This document shows positions 23,468-59,922 of a DNA stretch of 64,000 nucleotides, piece after piece. The stretch's first letter is position 1; every line of letters begins with the position of its first letter. The notes beneath the pieces are model-generated. The model worked only from the letters and a program-made list of their open reading frames with translations, made no database searches and had not been told where the DNA came from. The DNA is from Chitinophaga caseinilytica. GTDB taxonomy: Bacteria; Bacteroidota; Bacteroidia; Chitinophagales; Chitinophagaceae. The translations under genes and the position numbers were made by a program. Where the stretch lies: assembly GCF_038396765.1 (NCBI RefSeq), contig NZ_CP150096.1, positions 3,269,001 through 3,333,000 on the forward strand, read 5' to 3'.

Positions 23468-23641
23468 CGTATCGTGGCGGTAAACTGATCCGGAGCGTTT
23501 GTATTAACCAATCCTAAACCATAAAGCGGTATACCTATGTATTGACCTTTACATTACCCTGTACATACTGAACCTCATTGACTGTCGTGTCCGGGCTGCC
23601 GGAGGCGCCTTACCGATAACCATTTGCATACACCGATCCTC

Positions 23642-38056: not shown

Positions 38057-38082
38057 CCGATTCCTGAACGACCAAAAAAACG

Positions 38083-39099: not shown

Positions 39100-39117
39100 T
39101 CAAACAGCTTAACACCC

Positions 39118-42588: not shown

Positions 42589-43185
42589 ATGGGATTTTCG
42601 TTAACGGGACAATCGGATAACTTTTTGCTGGAGGAATGCAGGAACGGCAATCCCCGGGCATTCGACGAGCTGTTTGACCGTTATTCCGCCCGGCTCCATC
42701 ATTACGGCCTCAAATACATTGACGATGCCCACCAGGCCGAAGAAGCCATGCTCGACGTTATGCTCTGGCTCTGGCAGAAATGCGACCAGGTGCCCCCAGA
42801 CGTGCAGCTCGCTCCCTACCTTTTCCGCGCCATGAAAAACGCGGTAGTGCGCACGGTGACCCGCCAACGCAATTTCACCGTTCCCCTCGAGCACCTTGGC
42901 GAAAGTGTGCCCGCCGGTACCCTGGACGCCGACAGCCGCATCCGCGAGCGGCAGCTGGAAACCGCCTGGCTGGAAGAGCTGGGCCAGCTCAGCGAGCAAC
43001 GCCAGAAAGCGTTCCGCCTCAGCCGGCTGGAAGAATTGTCGCACGCCGAAATAGCCCGGGAAATGAAGCTTTCGCCCTTTACCGTCAAGAATCATATCAA
43101 AGCCTGCCTTTCCCAATTCCGTGAGCGGTTGAAAGACTACGCCGACCTCAGCACCGCCATTGTTATCTGTATATTAACTCTCTGA
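42589..43185 (+). CDS. ECF-family RNA polymerase sigma factor (FecI-like)
   Basis: A 198-residue protein; ATG 42589 is preferred over the TTG at 42562. Sigma-2 (CRNGNPRAFDELFDRYSARL and AEEAMLDVMLWLW) and sigma-4 (LSEQRQKAFRLSRLEELSHAEIA in outline, then TVKNHIK) are complete, with no sigma-3. The protein ends in a short hydrophobic tail (TAIVICILTL), as several Bacteroidota FecI-type factors do. It is followed by a FecR gene and an STN-type TonB receptor, so the signal is expected to come from that receptor. It probably transcribes the surface-gene run to 59863. Confidence 0.94.
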   Translation: MGFSLTGQSDNFLLEECRNGNPRAFDELFDRYSARLHHYGLKYIDDAHQAEEAMLDVMLWLWQKCDQVPPDVQLAPYLFRAMKNAVVRTVTRQRNFTVPLEHLGESVPAGTLDADSRIRERQLETAWLEELGQLSEQRQKAFRLSRLEELSHAEIAREMKLSPFTVKNHIKACLSQFRERLKDYADLSTAIVICILTL

Positions 43186-43265
43186 TTTTTTCCTTTCCCG
43201 GTTAGCCCTCCCTTCCCGATACTGTACTATATAGGCATGCGGCGATTAATGCCGCCTTGCAGATC

Positions 43266-44276
43266 ATGACGAATCAAGTCGACAGCCCACACATACACCG
43301 CTATCTCGATCGCCTTTGCACGCCCATGGAGCAGGCGCGGGTGGAAGCATTCCTCCAGCTGCCGGAAGGCCGCGAACTGCTAAACGCCGTTCTCGAAGCC
43401 CGGATGGCTGCGGATATGGAGGAAAGCGCCTCCGCAGTGGTTCCCGCCGAAACGCGCGCGCAATGGAAAGCGAAGCTCGCGGAAAGAATGTTCGGGGATG
43501 GAAGCGCCCCCGCCAAAGTGGTCCCCATGCGCAAATGGTTCAAAGCCGCCATGTGGGCCGCAGTGATCGGCGGCGCGGGATGGATGGGCGCACGGATGCT
43601 GAAGCACGCGCAGCGCGAACCGGCCATGGTCATGGCTTCCAAGCAAACGGCCAATGGCCGCCGCGCGGTAGTGCGGTTGACGGACGGGTCGGTAGTACAC
43701 CTCGGCGCCGGAAGCAGCCTGCGCTACCCGGAATCGTTCAGCGGCGATGCCCGCGAAGTATTCCTCGACGGCGAAGCATTCTTCGAAATAGCAGAAAAAC
43801 CCGGACAGCCGTTCATGGTGCATTCCGGCGAAGTGCGGACCACCGTGCTGGGCACCTCGTTCCGCGTGAGCGCGTTCAACGGCAGGCAGGCCCTGGTGGC
43901 CGTGGCTACGGGCAAAGTGCGGGTAGACCATGTGAAAGACGGCGTTCCGCAGGAACTGGCGGTGCTGACGCCGGGCGAGGAACTGAACTGGGAACAGACC
44001 GGTGGAAAATTCCACGTAGCGGAAGTAAAAGCGACAGACGTGGAAGCCTGGAAAGGCGGAAGGTTGGTATTCCACAGCAAGCCGCTGTTGGAGATCGCGA
44101 AAGAACTGGAACGCTGGTACGGCGTAGAGATCGCGATCGGCAAGGAAAGTATTTCAGATCAGAAAATAACGGTAACCCTTTCCGGCGCGGCGCCGCTCGA
44201 CAAAACGATGCAGCTGCTGGCCGCGGGAGGAGGGTTTTCCTATATCACCCAAGGGGGAAAAGTCACCATTCATTAA
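43266..44276 (+). CDS. FecR-family anti-sigma factor
   Basis: A 336-residue protein (ATG 43266, not the TTG upstream). A short cytoplasmic N-terminus binds the sigma factor, one membrane span (about residues 93-112, FKAAMWAAVIGGAGWMG) follows, then the FecR domain (TANGRRAVVRLTDGSVVHLGAGSSL... in outline, GEAFFEIAEKPGQPFMVHSG) and a C-terminal DUF4974-like domain. In the known pathway the receptor's STN domain contacts FecR in the periplasm. It lies 80 bases after the sigma gene, as usual. Confidence 0.95.
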   Translation: MTNQVDSPHIHRYLDRLCTPMEQARVEAFLQLPEGRELLNAVLEARMAADMEESASAVVPAETRAQWKAKLAERMFGDGSAPAKVVPMRKWFKAAMWAAVIGGAGWMGARMLKHAQREPAMVMASKQTANGRRAVVRLTDGSVVHLGAGSSLRYPESFSGDAREVFLDGEAFFEIAEKPGQPFMVHSGEVRTTVLGTSFRVSAFNGRQALVAVATGKVRVDHVKDGVPQELAVLTPGEELNWEQTGGKFHVAEVKATDVEAWKGGRLVFHSKPLLEIAKELERWYGVEIAIGKESISDQKITVTLSGAAPLDKTMQLLAAGGGFSYITQGGKVTIH

Positions 44277-44413
44277 CCTTAAACATTGCGCATGATGTAG
44301 AACGGTACGCAAAAAAAATGCCCCCGCTTGCGTTTGCACCGCCGGCAGGAGCATGTAGATAATTTCTTTCACCTTTCATGTTTTGGACGACGATGACGGT
44401 GAGGAAATTACAT

Positions 44414-44458
44414 GGGCATCTCATGCCCGTACGTTAACAGATTGCCCTTCGCAGGGCT
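44414..44458 (+). promoter_or_regulatory. two small hairpins in the leader of the STN receptor gene
   Basis: GGGCAT/ATGCCC (44414-44419 with 44423-44428, loop CTC) and GCCCT/AGGGC (about 44444-44457, loop TCGC) stand in the 203-base gap between fecR and the receptor. They lack T runs, so they are not obvious terminators; they may shape the leader RNA or be part of a sigma target. Confidence 0.35.
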
Positions 44459-44479
44459 TAACCAGTAACATTCAAAAGT

Positions 44480-47400
44480 ATGAAAAAAGGATTAAAGAAT
44501 GATCCTTTCGGAAAAGTCATGCCCGCTGTGACCGATGGCCGCGCACTTGAATGTAACGCTCCCGGGAACGCCGCTTGGCCCGATTCCGGACCGTTACGTC
44601 AAATACGCTTCCTGATGAAATGCTCGTTTATCTTCCTGCTGATCCAACTTACCTGCGTGAGCCTGCTGCTGGCCGGCACGGCCACCGGGCAAGACCTTTC
44701 CGCCCGGCTCGATCTCCGGCTGACCAATGCCGGTGTGCGGGAAAGCCTGCTCCTGATCGAAAAGGAAAGCGGTGTGCGCTTCCTGCTCCCCGAATCGCTG
44801 CTGGAGAACACCGGCAAAAAGATCACCCTGCATCAGCCCGGTATCTCCGTGAAAGATGCGCTGGCGCATGTTTTTGCGGGAACGGAACTGACCTATAAAC
44901 TATTGAACGGATATGTGGTAGTGGTCCGCAAGCCCGTTCCCATCCGCGTTTCCGGGCGGGTGCTCGACGGGAAGTCGAAAGAGCCGCTGCCCGGGGTGTC
45001 GATCCGTGTGAAGGGGACTTCCAGCGGCGCAGTGACGGATGTATCCGGCAATTTCGCGATCGATATTCCCGAAGAGGGCGCTACACTGGTATTCAGCCTG
45101 ATGGGATATGACGCGAAGGAAGTAAAAGTTGCAAAGGGCACCACTTCGATTTCCGTAATGCTCAATACCGCGTCGCGCCAATTGGGCGAAGTGACGGTGA
45201 ACGCCCGCAGGAAAACGAACACCGAAATCACGGTGCTCCAGGAACGCAAGAACGCCGCCATCGTGCAAGACGCCATTTCGGCGCAGCAGATCGAGCGCAC
45301 CGCTTCCATCACCACCACCCAAGCCCTGCAACGGGTGAGCGGCGTAACGGTGACAGACGATAAGTACGTGGCCATCCGCGGGCTGGGCGACCGCTCCGTG
45401 ATCGGGCAGCTCAACGGCGTGCGCCTCGCATCCTCCGACCCCGACCGCAGCGCCATTCCCCTCGATCTCGTGCCCGCAAGTCTCCTCGATAACATCACCA
45501 TCTTCAAAACCGTTACGCCCGATAAACCGGCAGACGCCGCCGCAGGGATCGTGGAGCTGAAAACCAAATCCATCCCCGACAAAGCCACACTGGAGATCAT
45601 CGCGCAGACGGGCTTCAATTCCAACATCGGGATGGGCGGGAAGATGAACAGTTTCTATAACAGCGAGCTCGGTTTTTTCGGCGGGAAAGTGAATGAGAAA
45701 AACCTTTCCCCCGAATTCCTCAACCTTTCCAAACAATATCCCGGCGGGCTGGGCCAGATACAAACGCTCATCGCCAACAGCCAGCACGACCCCGCCATGC
45801 GCCAGGAAGCCAATCGCATCAACCGCATCATGCACGGATTCGATCCTGTGCTGACCACCCGCTACAAACAGGCGCCCCTCAACCAGCTGTATTCCGCTAC
45901 ATACGGCAACAGCTTCAAGGTGCTGAAGAATAAACAGCTGGGCCTCGTGCTGGGCGCCAACTATTACCGCCGCGCGAGCGATGTGTATGGCGGCGAGCTT
46001 ACACAGTACAGCATTTACCAGGGCGTGATCACGGGAAACCCACAGGTGTACAGCCCGCGGAGTATCCCGAATTACATCACGCCGAACAGCCTCTACATGG
46101 GCAAATACCAGACGTACAAGGAAAATACCGGCACCGAAACCCTCAACTACGGTACCCTCGCGGGGCTTTCGTTCCGCTTCAGTCCGCGCCACGAGATCAG
46201 CATGCAATACCTCGGCAGCTGGGGCTCCGAAGCGCAGGCCGTGAACATGTACGGCCAATATCAATACACCGGCCTGCCCGGCGAAGTGAACAGCACGATC
46301 TATTCCCTCAAGCAAACGCGCCGCAGCCTCAACACGTTCAACCTGCAGGGCGAGCACAAGTTCACCGCATCGGCGTATTCGCCGCGGCTGAGCTATAACA
46401 TGGCATCTTCCTCGTCTTCCCAGAACGATCCCGATTTCCGGTTCGTAACGCTGACGGATTATAAACCCCGCAACGGCGCCTATTACTGGCGGCCTTCGGT
46501 AAGCCCGGCAAGCGGACAGGGCACCTGGAACCATACCGATCATCTCTACGCCCTGAACTCCGGATATGTGAACGGGTACGGCACCTACGGCATCATCCAG
46601 GCGGAGCCAAACGGCCGCCGGTGGCGCAATCTGGAAGAAACGAACTGGAACTACAAAGCCGATGTCACCCTTCCGTTCCCGCTGTTCGGCCGGAAACAGG
46701 AATTCAAAACCGGTGTCAATTACCTGAATCGCGACCGCACTTTCCGGGAAAACATGTTCTTTTTGCCCGGCTCCAACTTCGCGCCGAACGGTGCGCTCAC
46801 GCTGTACGACGTTGCCGGTAATCTCGACAGGTTCGTCAGTGCCGATGTGATCGGCATCAGGCCGGTTGCCGGCGGAACGGGCGAAGGGGCGGACAAAGTC
46901 GGCGGTTACCTGTACAACAGCCAGAAATCACCGAACAACTACACCGGCTTCTTCGAAACGAATGCGTTCTACGGTATGCTCGACATGCGCATCCTTGAAA
47001 ACCTGCGCCTGGCGGGTGGTGTGCGGTTCGAGAAAACGAATATCCAGTCGGCCGTGGATACGTCCGACGTATATCTCGATCCGGCATTGACGAAGAAAAA
47101 CGACGACGGGCAATCCGTTCCCGTCATGATGATCGACCCGAACACCGTTTACAAAACATCCTACAAACCCTACTACGCGGCCAACCTGACCTACACGCTC
47201 CACGAGAACATGAATTTCCGCATGGCCTACAACACCACACTGGCGCGGCCGGAGCTGCGCGAGCTTACGAACGTGTTCGAGTTCGATGCGTTCCAGATGG
47301 GCCTGGTAGTGGGGAACCCCAACCTCGTGAACCAGCATACCGAAAACCTCGACTTCCGTTGGGAATGGTTTCCGGCGGCGGGGGAAGTGATCTCCGTGTC

Positions 47401-48052
47401 GGCCTTCGGCAAGCGCATCCAGAACCAGCTCGTGAAAGTGTTCAGCTTGAAAACGGACGGCCTGGCGGCGAAGTATCCCGAATATCCCACCATTCAATTC
47501 CAGAACGATCCCAACCGCGGTACGGTTTGGGGCGTGGAACTGGAACTGGTGAAGGATTTGGGAAGATTGTCGCCCGCATTCCGCAACTTCTTCATCGGCA
47601 CCAACCTGCTCCTCGCGCAAAGCAATATCAAGAAAACGCAGGAGCGGTACAGCGCCAATAAATCGCTGGACAGGCATACGCCGGAAAACAGTCCGCTTTT
47701 CGAACAGGCGCCTTTCAGCCTCAATGGCTGGCTCAACTACAAGAACGCACGTTCCGGTACCGACCTCACGGCCACGTTCAACATGGTAGGGGAGCGGCTG
47801 GTGCAGATCAATCTCACCGGCGAGCCCGATCTCTACACCCGGCCCGTGCCCATGCTCGACCTCGTGTTTTCGCAGACGCTGGGCAAACGCCTGTTGTTCA
47901 AGGGGTATATGAAAAATATCCTCAATCCCGCGATCGAAACGGTGTACGCCAATCCCGGAACGGGTGGCAAATGGTACGGCAACCGGTATGTGAACCGCAG
48001 CTTCAAGCGCGGCGCGGAAATCATGCTGGGCTTTACTTACAAGCTGTTATAA
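44480..48052 (+). CDS. STN-domain TonB-dependent receptor with carboxypeptidase-like domain
   Basis: A 1190-residue outer-membrane receptor. A signal-type segment (MKCSFIFLLIQLTCVSLLL in outline) begins at residue 46; an ATG at 44615 could be the real start if the first 45 residues are not translated. Then come an STN domain (about 70-150, VRFLLPESLLEN and VKDALAHVF), a carboxypeptidase-regulatory-like domain (about 155-240), a plug (with ALQRVSGVTVTDDKYVAIRGLGDRS in outline) and a long barrel ending GFTYKLL. The STN domain is the one that talks to FecR. No SusD partner follows, so this is not a classical SusC. Confidence 0.92.
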   Translation: MKKGLKNDPFGKVMPAVTDGRALECNAPGNAAWPDSGPLRQIRFLMKCSFIFLLIQLTCVSLLLAGTATGQDLSARLDLRLTNAGVRESLLLIEKESGVRFLLPESLLENTGKKITLHQPGISVKDALAHVFAGTELTYKLLNGYVVVVRKPVPIRVSGRVLDGKSKEPLPGVSIRVKGTSSGAVTDVSGNFAIDIPEEGATLVFSLMGYDAKEVKVAKGTTSISVMLNTASRQLGEVTVNARRKTNTEITVLQERKNAAIVQDAISAQQIERTASITTTQALQRVSGVTVTDDKYVAIRGLGDRSVIGQLNGVRLASSDPDRSAIPLDLVPASLLDNITIFKTVTPDKPADAAAGIVELKTKSIPDKATLEIIAQTGFNSNIGMGGKMNSFYNSELGFFGGKVNEKNLSPEFLNLSKQYPGGLGQIQTLIANSQHDPAMRQEANRINRIMHGFDPVLTTRYKQAPLNQLYSATYGNSFKVLKNKQLGLVLGANYYRRASDVYGGELTQYSIYQGVITGNPQVYSPRSIPNYITPNSLYMGKYQTYKENTGTETLNYGTLAGLSFRFSPRHEISMQYLGSWGSEAQAVNMYGQYQYTGLPGEVNSTIYSLKQTRRSLNTFNLQGEHKFTASAYSPRLSYNMASSSSSQNDPDFRFVTLTDYKPRNGAYYWRPSVSPASGQGTWNHTDHLYALNSGYVNGYGTYGIIQAEPNGRRWRNLEETNWNYKADVTLPFPLFGRKQEFKTGVNYLNRDRTFRENMFFLPGSNFAPNGALTLYDVAGNLDRFVSADVIGIRPVAGGTGEGADKVGGYLYNSQKSPNNYTGFFETNAFYGMLDMRILENLRLAGGVRFEKTNIQSAVDTSDVYLDPALTKKNDDGQSVPVMMIDPNTVYKTSYKPYYAANLTYTLHENMNFRMAYNTTLARPELRELTNVFEFDAFQMGLVVGNPNLVNQHTENLDFRWEWFPAAGEVISVSAFGKRIQNQLVKVFSLKTDGLAAKYPEYPTIQFQNDPNRGTVWGVELELVKDLGRLSPAFRNFFIGTNLLLAQSNIKKTQERYSANKSLDRHTPENSPLFEQAPFSLNGWLNYKNARSGTDLTATFNMVGERLVQINLTGEPDLYTRPVPMLDLVFSQTLGKRLLFKGYMKNILNPAIETVYANPGTGGKWYGNRYVNRSFKRGAEIMLGFTYKLL

Positions 48053-48076
48053 ACCATCAACGTAAAAAGATTTTGC

Positions 48077-49792
48077 ATGCAATACAGATTTTATGCGGCC
48101 GCATTGTGCGGGTTGATGCTGGCCTTCCTTTCCTGCCGGAAAGAAAAGCAGGACCACCAGTACGACAACCGTCCCGTCCAGGACGCGCGCGGCAATTCGC
48201 TGCTGCGGCTCGTTAACCTGGTGGGGCATAACCAGGTGCTGGCCGGCGGCGATACCCTCACCAATTACACGGCTTATCCGCCCGGTTACGCCGGCGAAGA
48301 GCTGTATCCCGGAACGCCTTTCTTCCCGGAGAACGGCCGCCTGGGCCAGACCTGGAGCGTTCCCCGCCAGTTTTTCCATGCCGGGAAACTGCAACTCATG
48401 ACGGAACGCTTCGCGGTGCAGGGTGCGCGCGATACGCTGGCGCTGGATGTAAAGGAAGACGGAACGGCAGCGAAGGATATATTCCTCCTGCAACCGGAAT
48501 GGGTGGCCGACAAGCGCCTCCCCCGCATCGTGGAGCTGCCGCGCAGCGTGACCGCCCCCGCCAAGGCCGGATACTTCAAAGTAAGACTGGTGAACCTGGC
48601 GCAGGCGATCCGCCCGCAGTCGGAGCCTATCGACGATCTCACCAAGCCCCTCACGCTCGCGTTCGCAGACGGTACGCCCGTTGCGCCCGCCACATCGGCG
48701 GTAGGCGTGGGAAAGGCTTCGGAATATGTTGAATTGCCTTACGGAACGTACCAGTTCAAGGTATTGAGCCCGGAAGGGTACCAGGTTACGGCAGGCCAGG
48801 GCAGTTCGCTGGAATTTACCAGCATCCTCGACCCGGCAACCGCCACCCTCACGAAAGGCGCTATCGGCCGGCCGCACACCGTCAGCACCCATCTCACTTA
48901 CTCGCCGGTGCGCACGTTCCAGCCGGGTGGTGTGTATACGATCGTGGTGGCGACAGACCAGTTTACCATTCCTTATTACAATGGGCAGTCCGGCGAAACG
49001 ACGGTCGCCTATATGAACGCTTTCCGCATCCTGTCAGACATCAGCGAGCCCGCGAACCTGAACTACGCCCGCATCCAGGCGGTGAACGCATTGCCGGGAG
49101 AAGGTGCCGTTTCCGTGCAGCTCGACGGGCAAAACCTGGCACAGCTCGGTTTTGGGAAACCCAGCGAATATGCGCTGCGCATCCGCGGAACGGTCCGCAT
49201 CGATGCTACGGACGCGAAAGGCACGGTGATCGCTTCGGCGAATGCAGACCTGGAGCCGAATATGAATTACACGGCCTGGGTGTTCCGCGGTGCCAACGGG
49301 AAAGCGGCCATCAACGTAGTGAGCAACAACCTCAGCGGTGGCTGGTATGTTGGCGGGAACGGGGCAGACGGGAGCCTGGACCGCCGCCAGCATAAATATC
49401 CTTTCCACATCCGTTTCCTGAATTTCTGCGAAGACCTTCCGTACGTAAGCTTTACAGAAGACAACGGGCAGCCTTTCGGCAGCGAATCGAGCATCAACCT
49501 GCAACCCGGCGTAGCGGCCACCAACGTGCCGTACATCCGCCTGTTCCAGCAAAAGGAAGCTTTCCAGATCATGGCCTACCGGTCTTCTCCGGGCGTGGTG
49601 CCCGGCAGCTGGATCCGGGAAGTGCCCGTGTTGAAGGGGGCGGATTTCATCGCCAGGAAAGCATTGTACGTACGTGGCGAATTACCGAACCTGGAGCCCG
49701 GCGTATTCACGGTGGCGCTCATCGGTAAACTGAACGGCGCATCGCCGGAAGCGCAAAAGGCCAGAATGATCATTGTAAAACATACGAAGTAA
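48077..49792 (+). CDS. DUF4397-type lipoprotein
   Basis: A 571-residue lipoprotein (lipobox AFLSC, C20, then RKEK, which favours surface display in Bacteroidota). Two DUF4397-like beta-sandwich domains are seen: about residues 165-255 (VRLVNLAQA, then SEYVELPYGTYQFKVL) and about 325-420 (ARIQAVNALPGEGAVSVQLDG). The family is of unknown function, typically in cell-surface proteins. It lies 24 bases after the receptor and overlaps the next start codon by one base (TAATG), implying translational coupling. A binding role next to the receptor is inferred. Confidence 0.83.
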   Translation: MQYRFYAAALCGLMLAFLSCRKEKQDHQYDNRPVQDARGNSLLRLVNLVGHNQVLAGGDTLTNYTAYPPGYAGEELYPGTPFFPENGRLGQTWSVPRQFFHAGKLQLMTERFAVQGARDTLALDVKEDGTAAKDIFLLQPEWVADKRLPRIVELPRSVTAPAKAGYFKVRLVNLAQAIRPQSEPIDDLTKPLTLAFADGTPVAPATSAVGVGKASEYVELPYGTYQFKVLSPEGYQVTAGQGSSLEFTSILDPATATLTKGAIGRPHTVSTHLTYSPVRTFQPGGVYTIVVATDQFTIPYYNGQSGETTVAYMNAFRILSDISEPANLNYARIQAVNALPGEGAVSVQLDGQNLAQLGFGKPSEYALRIRGTVRIDATDAKGTVIASANADLEPNMNYTAWVFRGANGKAAINVVSNNLSGGWYVGGNGADGSLDRRQHKYPFHIRFLNFCEDLPYVSFTEDNGQPFGSESSINLQPGVAATNVPYIRLFQQKEAFQIMAYRSSPGVVPGSWIREVPVLKGADFIARKALYVRGELPNLEPGVFTVALIGKLNGASPEAQKARMIIVKHTK

Positions 49793-50973
49793 TGAACAAG
49801 AAGCTGACAACATTATGCCTCTGGGGCATCCTGCTCGCCGGCCTCGCCGCCTGCAGCAAGGTGGAGTATACGGAGATCGAGAATCCTGCATACCTCCGTG
49901 TGTTCAATAACCTGAACCTGCGGATCGGGCTGGAGAACAAAGACGAGGAAAAGCCTTTCCTCACCATGCTCATCGACCCCGTGCTCGATGCCGACGGAAC
50001 GCCCGTGAGCGCCGCCATTAAAGGCGATTTCCTCGACCAGCGCGCGCCGTACGCACCGCCGTACCCTTCGCACGTGGGCTCCAGCAACAGCGTCAACAAT
50101 CCCGAATATCCCGGAAAGGAAAACGTGCTGGTAGGGCCCGTGCTCAACGGGTTCGACCTCAGCAGCTGGGCCCAGGTGCCCTCTGGCCGCCACCGCGTGA
50201 TGTTCTGCTACCGCCCCACCAACGCCGTGCCCTTCTTCAGCCTGGAGCCGCAGCTTCGCCGCAAGATCGTCATAGACACGGTGCTGGAACTGGGCGCGCG
50301 GGAAGTATACACCATGCACGTGCTCCAGCGCAACTTCGCCACCCGGAAAGTAGGCGTGATCGTCCGGACGGAGAACTTCCATAAAATTGCCCTGTCCGAT
50401 TCGCTCGTGTATGTGAATTTTTACAACTACAGCTCCGAAGGGTTCTGGCAGGCCGATAAATCACTGAAGAAAAACCAGTTCGAATCCGGTATGCTTAAAT
50501 ACGGCATCCGCGACCAGATGAACATCTTTCTCACCCTGTGCAAACCCGGCGGTTTTAACGCCATCCCCGGATACAAATTCATCCAGCTGGGATCGGTGAC
50601 GCGGGACGCCGCTTCGGGGAAAGTGACGCCTTACTTCAGCTTTCCGCTGTATGCCGACCCTACGTCCAACCATATCAGCACCGACATCTGGCAACGGATC
50701 TCCGTGCTGTCGCCCTCCATCGATCCGGAACGGAATCCCTACGGCGATGTGGCGGCGGATACGGATTGCCAGTATGGCGTGATCGCCTGTATCGGCAACG
50801 GCAGCCGTACCAGCTTCGAACAGGGGGCGCTGCACCTGCCGGGCATGATCGTCAACATTCACTCCGGCGTGCATAACCCGCGATCATTCTCCACGGTCAA
50901 CACCATCGAGATCGTCAACGGGAATGCGTACCTCACCACCATCCAGCGAAAATATCCGCCGCCGGTGTACTGA
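49792..50973 (+). CDS. lipoprotein related to DUF4397 proteins
   Basis: A 393-residue lipoprotein (lipobox LAAC, C21, followed by SKVEYTE). The AYLRVFNNLNLRIG start after the lipid anchor, the GFDLSSWAQVPSGRHRVMF segment and beta-rich character recall a DUF4397 domain with a long insertion rich in Pro/Ser/Asn (about 75-105). The rest (residues 160-393) has no match I recognise. It is translationally coupled to the preceding gene. Function unknown, probably part of the same surface assembly. Confidence 0.75.
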   Translation: MNKKLTTLCLWGILLAGLAACSKVEYTEIENPAYLRVFNNLNLRIGLENKDEEKPFLTMLIDPVLDADGTPVSAAIKGDFLDQRAPYAPPYPSHVGSSNSVNNPEYPGKENVLVGPVLNGFDLSSWAQVPSGRHRVMFCYRPTNAVPFFSLEPQLRRKIVIDTVLELGAREVYTMHVLQRNFATRKVGVIVRTENFHKIALSDSLVYVNFYNYSSEGFWQADKSLKKNQFESGMLKYGIRDQMNIFLTLCKPGGFNAIPGYKFIQLGSVTRDAASGKVTPYFSFPLYADPTSNHISTDIWQRISVLSPSIDPERNPYGDVAADTDCQYGVIACIGNGSRTSFEQGALHLPGMIVNIHSGVHNPRSFSTVNTIEIVNGNAYLTTIQRKYPPPVY

Positions 50974-51003
50974 TCGCCGGGCGCTCACATCAAAACGAAA
51001 GTC

Positions 51004-52077: not shown

Positions 52078-53327
52078 CCATGAACACAACTACCAAACAT
52101 ACCATCCGCAGCGCGTTTTTCGCCTGCCTGATGCTCCTCGCTGCCGCGGCCTGCCGGAAGGAAGAATTCCAGCAGCAGCCGCACGGCGAGCCCATGCCTT
52201 ACGCCGACACAGCACGCCATGATGTGCGGGGGCTGCTCGCCGTATCGCCATTCAAATTGTTCGACGCCGCGTGGCGGCGCAGTCATATGGACGAACTGAT
52301 GGCTTCCAAACCGCCGTCTATGCGCTTTACCATCCTCGCGGTAGATGATGCGGCCATGACGGCAGCGGGCTTCAGCGCGGCGGGGATTGCGGCGGCATCG
52401 CCGGAAACGCTCGATTCCATGCTTCGTTTCCATGTGCTGGTGGAAGCGGTCGACACAACGGCGCTCCGCCTGCAGACGCGCAACGTGGGCAAGAAAACGC
52501 TGTTCGAAAGCACCACCCTGCAGGAAATGCTGAACCGGGTCGGCTCGAACGTAACGTATCCCGAGCCCTACAATTACCGTCAGTTTATCAGCGCCGGCGC
52601 AGACGGAGAGCTGATCGTGAACGGAAAGCATACCGGCTCGCGCAGGCCCCTGTTTGCCAGGAACGGCGTGGTATGGCCCGTGAACCGCGTGCTGGAATTC
52701 CCGCGGCAACATGCATTGGATTATCTCGCCAGCGACCCGCGCTTCAGTCTGTTCGTGGCGCTGGAGCATTGGTGCGACAGCGTGTGGACCGAAGCGAGCT
52801 GGGGATATTTTCAGCGCACGACCTTCTCTTCGCTCCGGCCTAACATGTCGAACGGCGCCATCCAGCAGGAAATGTTTCTCGCGCCCACGAACGAGGCTTT
52901 CGCCGCGGCCGGGTTCCGTACGCTGGAAGATCTCGTCAACCTGAACATGCGGTCGCTGCCATACATGGATATGGACTGGTTCGAAATGCGGAACGGTTTT
53001 GTGACGGATACGCTGCTCAGTTACCATGGCCTCGGCCGGATGTACGCGCCCGTAGGCTCGTGGGGCCCGGGGGCGGGATCGATGGCGGTCTTCTTTTCCA
53101 GCGACCTGAACGCATCGCTGTCCGGCTTTGTGCTCAATGTGACCGACGGGTTGTTGCCGCCCTATTACATGCCGCTGGTCTTCAGTTCCGGGAATGGAAA
53201 GATCACCATCAGGCTGCCGGCCGGTACGCATACCGCAACCGTCACCGATGCGGATATCCGTACGTTGGAAGGGCCGATACATGCGGTTGACAGGCTGATC
53301 GTTCCCGCAAACCTGCAACTTCCCTGA
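52074..53327 (+). CDS. fasciclin (FAS1)-like lipoprotein 2
   Basis: A 417-residue lipoprotein (AAAC, C27, then RKEEFQQ). Two diverged FAS1-type domains: about 45-205 (RFTILAVDDAAMTAAGFS, LDSMLRFHVLVEAVD) and about 215-410 (EMFLAPTNEAFAAAGFRTLEDL). The repeats are less regular than in the neighbouring proteins. The ATG at 52074 overlaps the previous stop (ATGA), so the genes are coupled; a second ATG two codons later would also serve. Confidence 0.82.
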   Translation: MTMNTTTKHTIRSAFFACLMLLAAAACRKEEFQQQPHGEPMPYADTARHDVRGLLAVSPFKLFDAAWRRSHMDELMASKPPSMRFTILAVDDAAMTAAGFSAAGIAAASPETLDSMLRFHVLVEAVDTTALRLQTRNVGKKTLFESTTLQEMLNRVGSNVTYPEPYNYRQFISAGADGELIVNGKHTGSRRPLFARNGVVWPVNRVLEFPRQHALDYLASDPRFSLFVALEHWCDSVWTEASWGYFQRTTFSSLRPNMSNGAIQQEMFLAPTNEAFAAAGFRTLEDLVNLNMRSLPYMDMDWFEMRNGFVTDTLLSYHGLGRMYAPVGSWGPGAGSMAVFFSSDLNASLSGFVLNVTDGLLPPYYMPLVFSSGNGKITIRLPAGTHTATVTDADIRTLEGPIHAVDRLIVPANLQLP

Positions 53328-53349
53328 TTCACCCAACAAATTTTGAGCG

Positions 53350-54351
53350 ATGCAATCCAATCCGATCAAAACGATATTCACCGGCTGCATGGTGGTGACG
53401 ATAGCCATCGCCACCAACGGCTGCGATAAAGATAAAAACGACGCGCGGCCACAAGACAACAGCCGCATTCCACAGGTGCTGACAGACAACTTCAACCTGA
53501 CCGTCATGAACACCGTGGTGCTGCGTACGCATATGAAAAACGAATTGCTGAAGTCCGGTCCCTATACCCTTTTCGCGCCATCGGACGAGGCTTTCAACAA
53601 AGCCGGTTACGGTACCGTGACGGCCATCCTCGGCGCCAGCCAGCAATTGATTGACGGCATGGCCAATTACCATGTGATGCCGGGGCTGTACGATCTGCAG
53701 AAAATGCCTTTCCTCTTCAACCAGGAGATCAAAAGTTTCAGCGGCAAGCTGTTTGTGACGCGATGGGTGAAGGGGCAGGATACGATCATCACGGTGAACG
53801 GGAGCCGCCTCCTTTCATCCGGCATTTCGGCGAGCAATGGCTATGTGCAGGTGATCGACCGGGTGCTGGAGCCTTACCGGCATGAGCAGGTGGGGAATGC
53901 GGTTGCGGGGGAAAAGAGCCTGACGCTTTTTTACCATGCGCTCCGTGTGGCAGGAATGATTCCCCTGCTGGAAGGTGCCGGGCCGCTGACGGTTTACGCG
54001 CCCGCCAACGACGCCATGAAGGCCTACGGCTACCCCACGCTGGAAACCATTGAAGCCACCGATCCCGCCATCCTGCGGAATATGCTGCGCTACCACATCG
54101 CGGCAGACCGCCGTTTCGTGAACGATTACATATTATCTACGGGCAGCGGATCGGCCACCACACAGGGGATGATCAACAACAACTCCGTGAAGGTGACGCT
54201 GGTGCCCGATCCCCAGCAACCCGGCAACTTCACCGGCATTACGCTCCGCGGAACGGGGAACACGGCAGACGTGAAACTCGTCCGCCGCGACATCATCGCC
54301 GGCAACGGCGTGCTGCACATTACCGACCAGGTATTGCGCATCAATCAATAA
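53350..54351 (+). CDS. fasciclin (FAS1) domain lipoprotein 3
   Basis: A 333-residue protein with a lipobox of unusual form (IATNGC, C25, followed by DKDKND). Two FAS1 domains: about 40-175 (GPYTLFAPSDEAFNKAGYG, ...GMANYHVMPG, closing with GYVQVIDRVLEP) and about 185-330 (GPLTVYAPANDAMKAYGYP, LRNMLRYHIAADRR, closing with VLHITDQVLRI). It follows FAS1 protein 2 by 22 bases and precedes the second receptor by 19. Confidence 0.9.
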   Translation: MQSNPIKTIFTGCMVVTIAIATNGCDKDKNDARPQDNSRIPQVLTDNFNLTVMNTVVLRTHMKNELLKSGPYTLFAPSDEAFNKAGYGTVTAILGASQQLIDGMANYHVMPGLYDLQKMPFLFNQEIKSFSGKLFVTRWVKGQDTIITVNGSRLLSSGISASNGYVQVIDRVLEPYRHEQVGNAVAGEKSLTLFYHALRVAGMIPLLEGAGPLTVYAPANDAMKAYGYPTLETIEATDPAILRNMLRYHIAADRRFVNDYILSTGSGSATTQGMINNNSVKVTLVPDPQQPGNFTGITLRGTGNTADVKLVRRDIIAGNGVLHITDQVLRINQ

Positions 54352-54370
54352 TCAACAAAAAAACTACATC

Positions 54371-57300
54371 ATGCAGCATTTTACTGTGAGATATATTTGG
54401 GCCTTTTTGCTGTTGCTGCTCCCGTTTGCGGGCGTGGCGCAGGAAACGGGCGGCGGCCTCACCGGCAGGGTGCAGGACGCGAAGGGCGGCCCCCTGCCCG
54501 GGGTCACCGTGGTGGCCGTTCACGAGCCCTCCGGCACTAAGTACCCCGTCATCACCGACGAAGGCGGCCGCTACCGGCTCATGGGTATGCGCATCGGCGG
54601 GCCTTACAAGGTAACCGCCACCATGATGGGCATGCAGCCTTTCGAACAGAACGGAATTGTCGTGAAACTGGGAGAGCCCCAACTGCTGCACATCGTACTG
54701 GCGGAAGAAAGCCGCCGGCTCGGGGAAGTGGTAGTGAAAGGCGCCAACAAGGGAACACGCGCCAATACTTTCGGCGCGGGCCAGCACATCAGTCGCACCC
54801 AATTGAACAATATGCCCGCCGTGAGCCGCAGCATACAGGACATCACGCGACTGGTGCCCCAGGGCAGTAAAGACAACAGTTTCGCCGGCACCAACTTCCG
54901 GTACAACAACGTGACGATAGACGGGGCGGTGAACAACGACGCCATCGGGTTCAGTCCTTCTAACGGCGGCCAAAGCGGTACTTCCGGCCAACCCGGCAGC
55001 AGCACCCGCACCAACCCCGTTTCTTTGGACGCCATCGAGGATATGCAGGTGTACCTGGCGCCGTACGACGTAAAGATCGGGAACTTCACCGGCGGCAGCG
55101 TGAACGCCGTCACCCGCAGCGGCACCAACAAACTGACCGGTTCGGTCTATGCTTATGGAAGAAACGCCGCCATCACGGGGAAAGACCGGAAAGGCACGCT
55201 GGGCAAAATGAACAGCGATTTCCAGGATTACCAGGCCGGCGTGCGACTGGGTTTTCCCATCATCAGAAACAAATTGTTCTTCTTCACCAACGAAGAAATC
55301 ACCCGCCGCACCGATCCCTCGCAACTGATCGCCGGGAAAGCCGAAACGGAAGGCATCCTCAGCGCCAAAGACGCCGAAGCCATCCGCAGCACCACGATCG
55401 GGCGGTACGGGAATGTTTTCGATCCCGGAACGGCGGGAGTATTCAATTCGTCGTCCAAATCGGTAAAGTTTTTTAACCGCATCGATTGGAACATCAACGA
55501 CAAACATCAACTCTCGCTCCGCAATAATACCATTCGTTCCAGCGCCATCAGCCTCGACCGCGACCAGCAGGATTTCCGGTTCTCCAGCATGGCTTTCAAA
55601 CAGACCAACAACCAGAGCAGTACCGTGGCCGAACTGAAGAGCCGCCTCGGCAACCGCATCACCAACAGTTTCGTGGCCGGTTTCAGTACCGTGCACGATT
55701 ACCGCGATCCGCTCAGCGATCCGTCTTTGCCGCAGGTACAGATCCAGGGCAGGACGCCGGGCACTACCATCTACCTCGGTACCGACCGCGAAGCGTCAAT
55801 CTTCAACATGAAACAGCGGACGGTCGAGATCACCAACAATTTCAGCTGGAGCCGCGGGAAACACAACTTCCTCGTCGGCACCCACAACGAACTGTACCAT
55901 ATCGATTACGGTTTCGTGAACAGCTGGAACGGAAGGGTGGATTACCTGAGCATCGGGGATTACATCAATAATCAGCCGTACCGCGTGCGCGGCAGTTACA
56001 ACTATACCAATAATTCGAGGGATTACATCCTGGCCAATCCGGGCGCCGTGTTCAATGTGAACCTTTACAGCCTGTACGTGCAGGACGAAATCCAGGTGAA
56101 CGACAAACTGAAGCTCATGCCGGGATTGCGGGCGGATTACACGCATCTCCCCGAAAAACCGGAACTGAGCGACAAGGTGCGCAACGCCATCGCCGATCCC
56201 TTTTTCGGCAATACTTTCGAGTACACGCCGCTGAGCCGCATCCGGAACGATTATTTCAGCAAAGTGAAAATCTCCCCGCGCCTCGGTTTCCGGTACGACT
56301 GGCTGGGCGATCAAAGCCTGGTGCTGCGTGGCGGTGCCGGCCTGTTCACGGGGCGCATCCCGTTTGCGTGGCTGGCGTATGCCTATTATAACAACGGGAT
56401 CGGGTATGGGTCGTTCGATCAGCGGGCAGACCAGAAACCCTTTGCCCAGGGTGCAGACGCCATCCGGCCGGGCAAAAACGGCATCGCGGATTTTGTTGCG
56501 GCCAACGGCATCGTCACCAATAATCCCTATGCCGGCAAAACGCAGGTAGACCTGGTAGACAACAACTTCAGCATGCCGCAGGTGCTCCGCGCCAGCCTGG
56601 CCGTAGATTACACGACGGCTTCGCAGTGGAAACTCGGCATCGAAGGGCTCGTGACCAAAAGCCTGAAAGACGTCGCTTTCCAACAGGTGAACATCACCGA
56701 CGATCCCCGCTGGTACGGCTACGACCGGCAAAGGAAGCAACCTGTTTACAATAGCACCGTAGATCCTGCGTTCTCCAACGCATACCTGCTGAGCAATACC
56801 GGAAAAGGGTATCGTTACAGCATCACCGGCACCGTGCAGCGGACGTTCGTGAACGGGCTTTTTGTGTCGGGGGCGTATACCTACGGGCAAAGCAAAGACC
56901 TGTACAACGGCATCCGGAACTCCATGGAAAGCAACTGGCAGCTGAACCCTGCGCTGAACCCGAACAATCCTTCGCTGGCATATTCGAACTTCGACATCCG
57001 CCACCGCATCGTGCTCAACTCCAGCTACCGCAAGGCCTGGAACAAGGTGATGATCAGTACGCTGAGCGTTTTCTTCAGCGCGCAATCTGGCAGTCCGTTT
57101 ACTTACGGCGTGGTGAACAACAGCGTGCAGGGCCTCCCGCAGCAGGTAAGCCTCGCCTACATCCCGGAGCGGGACGAAGCCATCGGTTTCTTTAAAGACC
57201 GGACGATCGACGGCGTTATGATTTCCGCTGCCGACCAGGCCGCCGCTTTCAACGCGTTCATCGACGGGAATAAATACCTCAACGGCAGACGAGGCGATTT

Positions 57301-57640
57301 CACGGAACGCAACATGGGCCGGACGCCCTGGAACGTACAGGCCGATCTGCATTTTGCACAGGAATTCCACTTCCCAAAATTGCAAACCAGGTTCATCACG
57401 TTCACGGCCGATATCGTGAACCTGACGAACATGCTGAACCGTGGATGGGGGATTCAATACTTCTCGCCCAATACCTTCAACAGCACGGCCAGCGTAGGCC
57501 TGACGCCAACACTGTTCCCGCCGGAACAGGGGAAAGACGGTTATCCCGTGTACACCTTCGCCAAACCCGGACTGCCGTATTCGGTGGATTACCTGGCGTC
57601 CAGGTACCAGGTGCAGCTGGGACTGCGGTATACTTTTTAA
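54371..57640 (+). CDS. Oar-like TonB-dependent receptor
   Basis: A 1089-residue receptor with a signal peptide (ending near GVAQ), a carboxypeptidase-regulatory-like domain (about residues 29-112) and a plug and barrel. Blocks such as NVTIDGAVNNDAIGFS and NFTGGSVNAVTRSGTNKLTGSVYAY (in outline) are typical of the Oar family of large TonB receptors. There is no STN domain, so it cannot itself signal to FecR, and no SusD gene follows. The substrate is unknown; Oar-type proteins elsewhere export or import large molecules. Confidence 0.9.
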   Translation: MQHFTVRYIWAFLLLLLPFAGVAQETGGGLTGRVQDAKGGPLPGVTVVAVHEPSGTKYPVITDEGGRYRLMGMRIGGPYKVTATMMGMQPFEQNGIVVKLGEPQLLHIVLAEESRRLGEVVVKGANKGTRANTFGAGQHISRTQLNNMPAVSRSIQDITRLVPQGSKDNSFAGTNFRYNNVTIDGAVNNDAIGFSPSNGGQSGTSGQPGSSTRTNPVSLDAIEDMQVYLAPYDVKIGNFTGGSVNAVTRSGTNKLTGSVYAYGRNAAITGKDRKGTLGKMNSDFQDYQAGVRLGFPIIRNKLFFFTNEEITRRTDPSQLIAGKAETEGILSAKDAEAIRSTTIGRYGNVFDPGTAGVFNSSSKSVKFFNRIDWNINDKHQLSLRNNTIRSSAISLDRDQQDFRFSSMAFKQTNNQSSTVAELKSRLGNRITNSFVAGFSTVHDYRDPLSDPSLPQVQIQGRTPGTTIYLGTDREASIFNMKQRTVEITNNFSWSRGKHNFLVGTHNELYHIDYGFVNSWNGRVDYLSIGDYINNQPYRVRGSYNYTNNSRDYILANPGAVFNVNLYSLYVQDEIQVNDKLKLMPGLRADYTHLPEKPELSDKVRNAIADPFFGNTFEYTPLSRIRNDYFSKVKISPRLGFRYDWLGDQSLVLRGGAGLFTGRIPFAWLAYAYYNNGIGYGSFDQRADQKPFAQGADAIRPGKNGIADFVAANGIVTNNPYAGKTQVDLVDNNFSMPQVLRASLAVDYTTASQWKLGIEGLVTKSLKDVAFQQVNITDDPRWYGYDRQRKQPVYNSTVDPAFSNAYLLSNTGKGYRYSITGTVQRTFVNGLFVSGAYTYGQSKDLYNGIRNSMESNWQLNPALNPNNPSLAYSNFDIRHRIVLNSSYRKAWNKVMISTLSVFFSAQSGSPFTYGVVNNSVQGLPQQVSLAYIPERDEAIGFFKDRTIDGVMISAADQAAAFNAFIDGNKYLNGRRGDFTERNMGRTPWNVQADLHFAQEFHFPKLQTRFITFTADIVNLTNMLNRGWGIQYFSPNTFNSTASVGLTPTLFPPEQGKDGYPVYTFAKPGLPYSVDYLASRYQVQLGLRYTF

Positions 57641-57667
57641 ACAACCACAAGCGATCAATCATTGCAT

Positions 57668-59863
57668 ATGAAAAAGCTCATCAGATATTTTTTGCTCCTG
57701 TGCCTGTTTGCCGCAACGGTTGGGGTACAGTCGTGCAGGAAAGAGAAAGATCCCGTGAAAACGCCCCTGGCCGTAAAAAGCTTCTTCCCCAACAGCGGGA
57801 ACGGCGGCACATTGGTCACGATCCTGGGATCGGGATTCAACAACGAAGGGTCCGTGAAGGTTTCTTTCGCGGGTAAGGACGCCGACATCATCAACCGGCA
57901 AGACACCGTGCTGGTGGTGCGCGCGCCCGCAACGGGCGGGTCCGGCGCTATCCGGGTAAACCTGGGTGAACAGTCTGCCGAAGCGGGGAATTATACTTAT
58001 CAAAAATTGTCGGTGAAACAATTCTTCCCCGGCAACGGTCCCGCCGGCATGCATATCCGTATCAGCGGCGAAGGGTTTAGTAGTTTGGATAGTCCGGCGG
58101 AGGTATTGGTGAACGGCAAAAGCGCCACCATCGTCAGTGCCACCGATACCCTGATCGTTGCGGAAGTGCCTGTTGCGGCGGGCTCTGGCCCGGTAACGGT
58201 GAAGGTGGACGGGAAATCTTCCTCCGGCGCGGACTTCCGGTTCCAGGCCATCACCGGCATCAAGCCCGTTACGGGCGGAGCTGGTACGAAGGTGGTGATC
58301 AGTGGTGGAGGATTCGAGAACGTATTGGCCGGAAATGTGGTGGATTTCAACGGCAAACCTGCCGTGGTGAAAGAAGCCGCTGAAAACCGGCTGGTGGTGG
58401 AAGTGCCGGCGGATGTGCGCACAGGGCCCGTATCCGTCGTGATCAACGATCAGAAAACGACCGGCCCGGACTTTACCATCGTTCCCCTGCCAACGATTAG
58501 CGGCGTTACGCCGTTGAGCGGCCCCGCCGGTACGGAAATGACGATCACCGGCCTGCATTTCAGTAAGGAGACAGACGAAAATATCGTGAAGATCAACGGC
58601 ACGGTGGTGCCCGTCAAGTCGGCGACGGGCACGAAACTGACGCTCGTGCTGCCCGGTGGTACCGGCGTCGGTAAGGTGACGCTGAGCGTGAACGACCAGG
58701 CCGTAACCGGGCCGGAGTTCCGCGACCAGCAACTGGGCATCCTGTCCGTAACCCCGGCCAATGGCCTCGCCGGCACGAAAGTAACGCTTGCCGGAACAGG
58801 CTTCAGTACCATTCCCGCGGAGAACATCGTCACCTTCAACGGCATCCCTGCAATGGTGGAATCGGCTACGGAAACCTCCATCACCGTAACCGCTCCGGCG
58901 GCGCTGACGAGCGGCCCGCTGGTGGTGAAGCGCGCTGCACTGGAGGCAAGGGCGCCCCAACAGTTCATGCGCGCAGGCGTGATCACGATCGCCGGAGGGC
59001 CTGCCACCAACACCTTGCTGACGAACACGATGAACGGCATGGCGGTCGATTCCAAAGGCAACATCTTCGTCATAGACCGATCGCAATTCAATGTGCTGAA
59101 AGTGACGCCCGACGGGCAAATAAGCGTTTTTGCCGGTAGCGATGCCGGAGAAATGGGCGTTGTGGACGGGAAAGGGATAGCCGCGCGTTTCATGACGCTC
59201 CGCGGCATCGTGATCGATCCCAACGATAACATTTACGTGACCGAAGTGGCCACCCGCAACAATATTCGTAAGATCAAACCCGATGGAACGGTAACTACCT
59301 TCAAATCAGGACTGGAGCGCCAGCCCGGCCAGATCATCCTCGACAAAAAAGGCAACATGTACGTGTCGCAGTTGTATTGGGGGATGTTGAAGATTTACCC
59401 GGATGCCGCGGTGGAACAGGCTTTCAATGGCAGTGTGTCTGACGATTGCCGTCCTGCCGTTGACGCGCAGGGCAACCTGTACTATTATGTAGACGAAAAC
59501 GAAGGGTTCCTCGGTAAGTGGAACTTCGGCGGGGCGGTCGATTACCGCTGGCTGGGCAGCTCGTTCGGTCATCAGGACGGCCCCTTCGACCAGGCGCTTT
59601 TCATGTACGGCATGCGCGGCCTGCTGTTCGATGCAGACGGCAACATGCTCATCCTCGACAAAGCCAACTATTCCATCCGTAAAGCCAACTTGGCGACAAG
59701 GGAAGTGAGTACCGTGGCGAAACTCGGCCGAGGCTTCGAAGACGGGAGTTTCGAACAGGCGAAGTTCTCGTTCTCGACGGTTGATATGGCGACCGACCGG
59801 GACGGCAATATTTACCTGCTGGACGCGGGCAACAAAGCGATCAGGAAAGTAATGTTAAAATAG
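57668..59863 (+). CDS. IPT/TIG-NHL lipoprotein
   Basis: A 731-residue lipoprotein (VQSC, C23, then RKEKD); I use ATG 57668, not the TTG 6 bases earlier. Five IPT/TIG Ig-like domains of about 80 residues (about 36-430, each with GxxVTIxGxGF or a variant) are followed by a propeller of NHL-type repeats (about 435-731, e.g. MAVDSKGNIFVIDRS, GIVIDPNDNIYVTEV, DRDGNIYLLDAGNKAIRKV). This arrangement is common in Bacteroidota surface proteins next to SusCD genes, with carbohydrate or protein binding presumed. It closes the operon; a strong terminator follows. Confidence 0.9.
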   Translation: MKKLIRYFLLLCLFAATVGVQSCRKEKDPVKTPLAVKSFFPNSGNGGTLVTILGSGFNNEGSVKVSFAGKDADIINRQDTVLVVRAPATGGSGAIRVNLGEQSAEAGNYTYQKLSVKQFFPGNGPAGMHIRISGEGFSSLDSPAEVLVNGKSATIVSATDTLIVAEVPVAAGSGPVTVKVDGKSSSGADFRFQAITGIKPVTGGAGTKVVISGGGFENVLAGNVVDFNGKPAVVKEAAENRLVVEVPADVRTGPVSVVINDQKTTGPDFTIVPLPTISGVTPLSGPAGTEMTITGLHFSKETDENIVKINGTVVPVKSATGTKLTLVLPGGTGVGKVTLSVNDQAVTGPEFRDQQLGILSVTPANGLAGTKVTLAGTGFSTIPAENIVTFNGIPAMVESATETSITVTAPAALTSGPLVVKRAALEARAPQQFMRAGVITIAGGPATNTLLTNTMNGMAVDSKGNIFVIDRSQFNVLKVTPDGQISVFAGSDAGEMGVVDGKGIAARFMTLRGIVIDPNDNIYVTEVATRNNIRKIKPDGTVTTFKSGLERQPGQIILDKKGNMYVSQLYWGMLKIYPDAAVEQAFNGSVSDDCRPAVDAQGNLYYYVDENEGFLGKWNFGGAVDYRWLGSSFGHQDGPFDQALFMYGMRGLLFDADGNMLILDKANYSIRKANLATREVSTVAKLGRGFEDGSFEQAKFSFSTVDMATDRDGNIYLLDAGNKAIRKVMLK

Positions 59864-59891: not shown

Positions 59892-59922
59892 CCGCCCTGG
59901 CTTCTGCCGGGGCGGTTTTTTT
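59892..59922 (+). terminator. terminator of the FecI/FecR-linked operon
   Basis: A 10-bp stem (CCGCCCTGGC with GCCGGGGCGG, one T-G pair), a TTCT tetraloop and seven T. It lies 29 bases after the IPT/NHL stop codon. Confidence 0.92.

Follow-up and report, generated by a model that had tools for sequence, protein, structure and literature searches.

A conserved SusD-less operon with two unlike TonB-type receptors and six lipoproteins in Chitinophaga caseinilytica and its relatives, a candidate surface uptake system

In Bacteroidota, import across the outer membrane is commonly interpreted in terms of SusC/SusD pairs, and a ten-gene locus of Chitinophaga caseinilytica raises the question of what two unlike TonB-type receptors and six lipoproteins may do together when no SusD is encoded with them. 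The locus lies in a stretch of 64,000 nucleotides (contig NZ_CP150096.1, positions 3,269,001 to 3,333,000 of the forward strand), and this whole stretch is called the window below, with its first letter as position 1. A first-pass annotation of the bare sequence had described a block running from a sigma factor gene to a terminator, with two different TonB receptors, three fasciclin-domain (FAS1) lipoproteins and an IPT/NHL lipoprotein, and open reading frames (ORFs), Pfam matches and a hairpin bear this out. We consider, with a probability of roughly 0.6, that the ten genes represent one functional unit: a FecI/FecR-controlled, SusD-less, TonB-dependent surface uptake complex. All ten genes are co-directional on the + strand and form one block from 42589 to 59863, in the order given by that annotation:

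42589..43185, + strand: extracytoplasmic function (ECF) sigma factor, FecI-type (Sigma70_r4_2 3e-12, Sigma70_r2 3.9e-7; TIGR02985 at 117.6 bits, under the cut-off of 126.4)
43266..44276, + strand: FecR-type anti-sigma factor/signal transducer (FecR 2.3e-15, FecR_C 7.6e-15)
44277..44479, + strand: FecR–TBDT1 gap of 203 nt, which holds an inverted repeat rich in G+C and the motif GTTTTSGAMGAC and is a candidate promoter region for the structural genes (alignment)
44480..48052, + strand: TonB-dependent transporter 1 (TBDT1), with STN, CarbopepD_reg_2, plug and a barrel nearest to TonB-Xanth-Caul (Pfam, NCBIfam)
48077..49792, + strand: lipoprotein 4, DUF4397 and Ig-like domains (DUF4397 7.8e-11; AlphaFold2 mean predicted local distance difference test, pLDDT, 83.7; Foldseek)
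49792..50973, + strand: lipoprotein 5, unnamed family, two predicted Ig/transthyretin-like domains (AlphaFold2 mean pLDDT 72.6; Foldseek/VIA)
51004..52077, + strand: FAS1 lipoprotein a, gene 6 (Fasciclin 5.5e-28, two stretches)
52074..53327, + strand: FAS1 lipoprotein b, gene 7, divergent (Fasciclin 2.8e-9; profile matches FAS1 structures)
53350..54351, + strand: FAS1 lipoprotein c, gene 8 (Fasciclin 2.2e-36, two stretches)
54371..57640, + strand: Oar-like outer-membrane receptor (OMP_b-brl_4 7.8e-51, CarboxypepD_reg 7e-18)
57668..59863, + strand: IPT/NHL lipoprotein, gene 10, five IPT/TIG stretches and an NHL/propeller C-terminus (TIG 8.3e-49, NHL 1.1e-7)
59892..59915, + strand: intrinsic-terminator-like hairpin with a T run (10 pairs, 9 of them G–C, T-rich tail; consensus match)

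The tight or overlapping junctions that had been described extend from TBDT1 through the last gene (−4 to +30 nt), whereas the sigma factor and FecR genes are 80 nt apart and the 203-nt FecR–TBDT1 gap is the widest within the set. The FecR start is at 43266, that of the IPT/NHL gene is probably at 57668, and the terminal hairpin heads a list of 28 hairpins in the window, for which shuffled sequences yield 22.5. The lack of SusD and of glycan enzymes was confirmed for the ten proteins by Pfam, as none of them has a SusD match and none matches an enzyme family above its cut-off, be it a glycan enzyme or a phosphatase or phosphodiesterase. The genome itself, a single contig of 6.5 Mb, contains 109 matches to PF07980 (SusD); those closest to the operon are some 15 kb away on its downstream side and 32 kb away on its upstream side.

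Is this grouping more than a local accident? The first-pass annotation was to be abandoned if the gene order were conserved nowhere or the products lay at unrelated locations, and the opposite was found: all ten genes are present in 44 of 54 loci from Chitinophagaceae and Sphingobacteriaceae, and the grouping is therefore more than chance. These loci comprise the window, 18 others and 35 that were found by exact short peptides of lipoprotein 5 and are for this reason biased to one subfamily (Chitinophaga, Pedobacter, Sphingobacterium, Mucilaginibacter, Desertivirga, Gynurincola, Pseudoflavitalea and unclassified relatives), with gene calls taken as longest ORFs and labels from the best BLAST hit; some carriers are soil- and plant-associated Bacteroidota, and non-pathogenic species such as Chitinophaga terrae and Pedobacter gandavensis are among those found by the peptide scan. 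Three loci are incomplete because of contig ends (L038, L041, L042), one lacks the sigma factor, FecR and Oar genes (L053), six lack the IPT/NHL gene (L070, L079–L083), three of which have a fourth FAS1 gene (L081–L083), and in L080 no gene is labelled FAS1b. The IPT/NHL gene stands upstream of the Oar gene in four loci (L051, L052, L054, L058), and the sigma factor gene is inverted in three (L077, L078, L082). As the same set is thus kept in an altered internal order, the link between the genes appears to be functional and not merely inherited. The synteny has its qualifications, since Oar-like proteins also occur outside the operon, weak FAS1 matches are found beside SusD, and the IPT/NHL gene varies in place or presence.

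Co-occurrence within the family points in the same direction. A search of 195 family genomes for lipoprotein 5 yielded 21 rows from 13 genomes, that of the window among them; two rows are one gene, which leaves 20 loci, and the TBDT1 matches at E ≤ 1e-100 fall on these same 20 loci and 13 genomes. Oar-like proteins are common outside the operon and reach E ≤ 1e-100 in 137 of the 195 genomes; as the TBDT1 and Oar searches scored three candidates per genome, copy numbers are lower bounds. This also applies to the profile searches, which scored at most four candidates per genome: counting the genome that holds the window, there were matches in 3 of 395 genomes of the class and in 2 of 395 of the phylum, so that the unit must be considered rare. 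Its boundaries were addressed by comparing about 13 kb on each side of 20 operons and the window surroundings with one another, without annotation for enzymes (21 operons, 14 genomes). When pieces of operon genes are set aside, no non-operon family recurs in more than four genomes; the family in four is another TonB receptor, and those in three include a second receptor family, a dehydrogenase, a regulator, a kinase and others. The unit is self-contained, and no flanking gene extends the ten-gene set: its gene content, conserved order, boundaries and co-occurrence are direct observations.

Some genomes carry two or three diverged copies, which come from different branches of the Oar tree; the diverged copies were obtained from the family search with lipoprotein 5 and the profile search at class level. 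This tree, computed by a quick method from 36 of 51 operon Oar proteins and 14 solo Oar proteins, without bootstrap and with a long-branch warning, places the operon proteins in one clade (36 rows, Shimodaira–Hasegawa-like approximate likelihood ratio test 100) with solo Oar proteins as its sister. Four copies from the window's family (L055, L057, L068, L070) lie inside a well-supported and otherwise Sphingobacteriaceae Oar group, which suggests transfer between the families or old paralogy. In Pedobacter sp. MC2016-24, a complete operon is directly preceded by the Oar and IPT/NHL genes with which a second copy ends (L059:3-2650), a tandem arrangement.

What kind of receptors does the unit encode? 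TBDT1 has CarbopepD_reg_2 and Plug domains above the Pfam cut-offs, and its barrel is best matched in NCBIfam by TonB-Xanth-Caul (residues 483–1188, 221 bits, under the cut-off of 310). The SusC-type family TIGR04056, with a cut-off of 368.25 bits, matches TBDT1 only at residues 156–293 (75.9 bits) and the Oar-like protein only at residues 30–152 (52.9 bits). With its TonB-dependent barrel, surface-type lipoproteins and several diverged copies per genome, the operon resembles SusCD/polysaccharide utilisation loci, which are often under FecI/FecR control; it differs from them in that it has neither SusD nor a glycan enzyme, that its barrels are not SusC-type over the barrel, and that there are two unlike barrels. 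Among the 35 peptide-scan loci, the barrels are also the best-conserved part, with median identities to the window of 66–68% (TBDT1 68%), versus 32–54% for the lipoproteins and 36–37% for the regulators.

The regulatory genes suggest how the system may be switched on. ECF sigma factor and FecR are both present in 52 of 54 loci and absent in L041 (contig end) and L053. The STN domain of the window TBDT1 scores 22.3 bits, under the cut-off of 28.4, and STN was found at E ≤ 0.001 in 17 of the 18 TBDT1 proteins scanned out of the 54. Because of this and because FecI/FecR genes stand beside TBDT1 in 52 of 54 loci, cell-surface signalling is likely. The FecR–TBDT1 gap is a candidate promoter region of the eight structural genes, and it contains an exact copy of GTTTTSGAMGAC at 44380–44391, a possible ECF sigma promoter element. 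If up to one mismatch is allowed, 20 of 54 operons have this motif close to the start of TBDT1, versus 0 of 54 FecR-coding controls; its carriers are largely related Pedobacter and Chitinophaga species, and three of the matches extend into the start of the ORF as called. The whole window contains 6 copies at one mismatch versus 1.3 expected, five of them at other sites, and the region 44277–44400 folds no better than shuffled sequence.

An ECF sigma factor, a FecR and an STN-bearing receptor are the components of FecI/FecR/FecA signalling, and the locus could for this reason be read as one for the uptake of iron, a siderophore or a cofactor, with accessory lipoproteins. In BtuB–BtuG, for example, a TBDT for a small molecule, a vitamin, is lidded by a surface lipoprotein that goes by another name than SusD (PMC10404256). 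The Oar-like protein also has a FepA-family match, a very weak one (21 bits, cut-off 493), whereas TBDT1 matched no siderophore receptor in the NCBIfam scan. Furthermore, eight structural genes, with six lipoproteins of Ig-like, FAS1 and IPT/NHL types and a second, unlike barrel, go beyond both FecA signalling and BtuB–BtuG and seem excessive for the uptake of a small molecule. FecI/FecR pairs in Bacteroidota also control glycan and other loci, and we regard a small-molecule locus as quite improbable.

The six lipoproteins are the most unusual part of the operon. Of the two that had been called DUF4397-like, lipoprotein 4 has a DUF4397 match in Pfam; lipoprotein 5 has none, and the description therefore holds for it only at the level of the predicted fold. 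Lipoprotein 5 belongs to no Pfam or NCBIfam family, although at least 413 database relatives were found when the 7995 candidates sharing most words were scored, and the 120 relatives listed have no Pfam domains and are named, if at all, hypothetical, uncharacterised, lipoprotein or after one DUF or another. Neither lipoprotein 4 nor 5 has a relative of solved structure by sequence in the PDB, and profile–profile comparison of lipoprotein 5 contributes nothing beyond the end of the signal peptide and one short stretch, with a probability of 29. Its predicted fold consists of two Ig-like domains (AlphaFold2, Foldseek/VIA), and lipoprotein 4 is of the same Ig-like type. When the six lipoproteins were searched with the PADLOC anti-phage models, no family reached E ≤ 0.001.

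Among the six, lipoprotein 5 shows the highest conservation, and its most conserved block lies in residues 91–120 (conservation 0.83–0.96), exactly where AlphaFold is least sure of the monomer (pLDDT 28–36). The three C-terminal residues are likewise conserved and of low pLDDT (39). Judged from these models, residues 91–120 and the C-terminus might be a surface that folds against a partner. The first-pass annotation had considered the FAS1 and DUF4397 proteins for the SusD role; this conserved but unplaced stretch suggests that, of the unnamed gene-5 lipoprotein and the FAS1 proteins, it is the former that would stay on a barrel permanently. As to surface display, the export signal of Bacteroidota lipoproteins has been given as K-(D/E)2 or Q-A-(D/E)2 (PMC5080379). 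The earlier observation that most lipoboxes are followed by charged residues applies to genes 4, 8 and 10, with K/R-(D/E) in 37/52, 43/52 and 36/45 proteins that have a lipobox, more weakly to genes 6 (9/54) and 7 (16/52), and not to gene 5 (0/52); the strict signal was found in 0/52, 0/52, 3/54, 16/52, 25/52 and 5/45 proteins of genes 4, 5, 6, 7, 8 and 10, respectively.

The FAS1 proteins match the adhesion proteins TGFBI and periostin. In the window's own genome there are only two other FAS1 matches, both weak (1637396 and 3180932; L005, L006), and as both adjoin SusD matches, FAS1 proteins may serve in SusCD loci too. FAS1c relatives of 33–34% identity in three further genomes (G912, G913, G915) were assigned neither inside nor outside an operon. 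The TGFBI/periostin matches, together with weak Foldseek matches of lipoprotein 5 to putative cell-adhesion proteins of Bacteroides, could mean that the FAS1, Ig-like and IPT lipoproteins bind cells or surfaces and that the receptors serve secretion or signalling and not import. A giant Big_2/CHU_C adhesin encoded just upstream of the operon would fit such an adhesion apparatus, but the other operons have no such neighbour in their flanks, and two receptor-type barrels that are better conserved than the lipoproteins, combined with an STN/FecR switch, suit uptake better. An apparatus for adhesion is thus distinctly unlikely. In the adhesin locus itself (window 23624–41106), a Big_2-repeat protein of 4810 residues carries a type IX secretion signal of the CHU_C kind, and its gene is followed by those for PorP/SprF and OmpA-family proteins.

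If the unit takes something up, what could it be? The relatives of its receptors lead to phosphate genes. A PhoU_div gene lies within 20 kb of 14 of the 30 evaluable close solo Oar relatives (41–59% identity), in nine cases within 5 kb, versus 0 of 67 remote Oar proteins; it was likewise found near 0 of 9 solo Oar proteins at 38–40% and near 0 of 17 evaluable operon copies. Fisher tests, which ignore relatedness, gave 2e-7 for the initial 113 Oar rows and 5e-9 with 37 added rows. For three relatives (G114, G004, G029), all of them linked, the PhoU_div place was taken from fetched loci, and without these the comparison is 11 of 27 close versus 0 of 64 remote (2.8e-7). Rows for which no PhoU_div place was available were set aside, namely 3 operon, 7 close and 1 intermediate row among the 113 and 16 of the 37 added rows, one of them close (G059, 42%, partial); for G047, no PhoU-like gene was seen in the 20 kb read, and it was left as not evaluable. 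Examples of close solo Oar loci hold PhoB/PhoR-like, PhoU_div and PiT genes, which were recognised by eye, with Pfam confirmation for L087 and L138 and no Pfam match for OprP-like porins.

Two full-length paralogues of TBDT1, chosen as the best among four regions fetched, are equally close (234 versus 233 bits). One (E 5.5e-66, 25% identity; PF14905, PF13715 and PF07715) lies in the phosphate cluster of the same genome (L138:5172-12829, at 0.54–0.56 Mb) with genes for an FII-like lipoprotein (no Pfam match), PhoU_div and PiT; the other (8.7e-66) is the receptor of a sigma/FecR/S41-peptidase cluster (L139). In Flavobacterium, the inorganic phosphate (Pi)-induced Fjoh_0545 of the PhoBR operon has the domains PF14905, PF13715 and PF07715, and Fjoh_3841 is an orphan Pi-induced TBDT with PF13620 only (Lidbury et al.; PMC8115612). 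We take Fjoh_3841 for an Oar orthologue and lipoproteins of about 460 residues for FII, both from domains and context and not from direct comparison. FII-like lipoprotein genes adjoin 2 of 21 operons. The clusters in question, beside two operon copies (L115:2061-10764 and L104:582-13930), contain a receptor, FecR, an FII-like lipoprotein and an S41-type peptidase, with a sigma factor seen in L115 only, on which Pfam was run, and they resemble PUSIII of Flavobacterium.

Because the solo Oar sister clade and a TBDT1 paralogue are both tied to phosphate genes, the operon may have been assembled from phosphate-type receptors, an origin that does not in itself show the present substrate. If a single substrate had to be named, a phosphorus-containing polymer or ester would be our best guess, made with low confidence. 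A phosphorus-scavenging offshoot, in which barrels recruited from PHO-type receptors take up a phosphorus-rich polymer, would be a special case of the uptake complex. Such an offshoot is favoured by the PhoU_div linkage, the phosphate-cluster paralogue, the FII-like neighbours and the Pi-induced TBDTs of Flavobacterium, and is opposed by the operon copies near which no PhoU_div was found, the lack of a phosphatase in the set, the second equal-best paralogue and the assumed homologies of Fjoh_3841 and FII; on balance, it is a tentative idea that we hold to be somewhat unlikely.

The more general TonB-dependent uptake complex is favoured by the two TonB-type receptors and the FecI/FecR/STN switch, and on the level of sequence the proposal of a conserved, SusD-less, surface-type machine is supported. 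We propose that the six lipoproteins would be displayed on the cell surface, where ligand bound by the STN-bearing TBDT1 would signal via FecR to the sigma factor, which in turn would transcribe the structural genes from the FecR–TBDT1 gap. Lipoprotein 5, with lipoprotein 4, would sit permanently on a barrel in the place of a SusD lid, and the FAS1 and IPT/NHL lipoproteins with the Oar-like barrel may capture a second component or pass the ligand on. Several points speak against this proposal. The set contains no enzyme, periplasmic binding protein or inner-membrane transporter, and the fate of the substrate is therefore left unexplained; import by Oar-like proteins is assumed; and surface display is deduced from a brief charge pattern, to which three of the six lipoproteins conform weakly. 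The low pLDDT in the conserved stretch of lipoprotein 5 may stem from a shallow alignment (23 sequences), and over all 40 blocks its conservation and pLDDT correlate weakly (−0.28). Finally, the motif GTTTTSGAMGAC is missing from 33 of 54 operons even at two mismatches.

No description of the locus was found in the open-licence full-text literature, nor any open-licence paper joining fasciclin, DUF4397 and TonB-dependent; by their titles, the open-licence papers found for DUF4397 concern phage nucleases, archaella and a Clostridium chitinase. Related in content are the phosphate-utilisation systems PUSI–IV of Flavobacterium, which also combine TBDTs with unnamed lipoproteins and in PUSII have a FecR-like regulator, and whose S41 peptidase and FI/FII lipoproteins resemble genes in the clusters beside the two operon copies; they differ in that the word fasciclin does not occur in the main text that describes them and that the operon has no phosphatase (PMC8115612). 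The locus looks like an undescribed form of lipoprotein-assisted TonB-dependent uptake. A bolder and unlikely reading is an undescribed class of machine in which the two barrels, STN/TonB-Xanth-Caul-like and Oar-like, would join the six FAS1, DUF4397-like Ig and IPT/NHL lipoproteins in one complex with the gene-5 family as a permanent lid, as a self-contained cassette that would have spread between the two families Chitinophagaceae and Sphingobacteriaceae and, by duplication, acquired several specificities for environmental polymers that contain phosphorus.

For the biology of these bacteria, a conserved SusD-less unit that retains the switch and the surface-type lipoproteins, with two unlike barrels and a nameless lipoprotein family, would be a clonable target in the search for a second architecture of import with lipoproteins. 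It also suggests what FAS1 and DUF4397 domains may do in bacteria, and its link to receptors of phosphate clusters makes the question of its substrate testable with few growth conditions.

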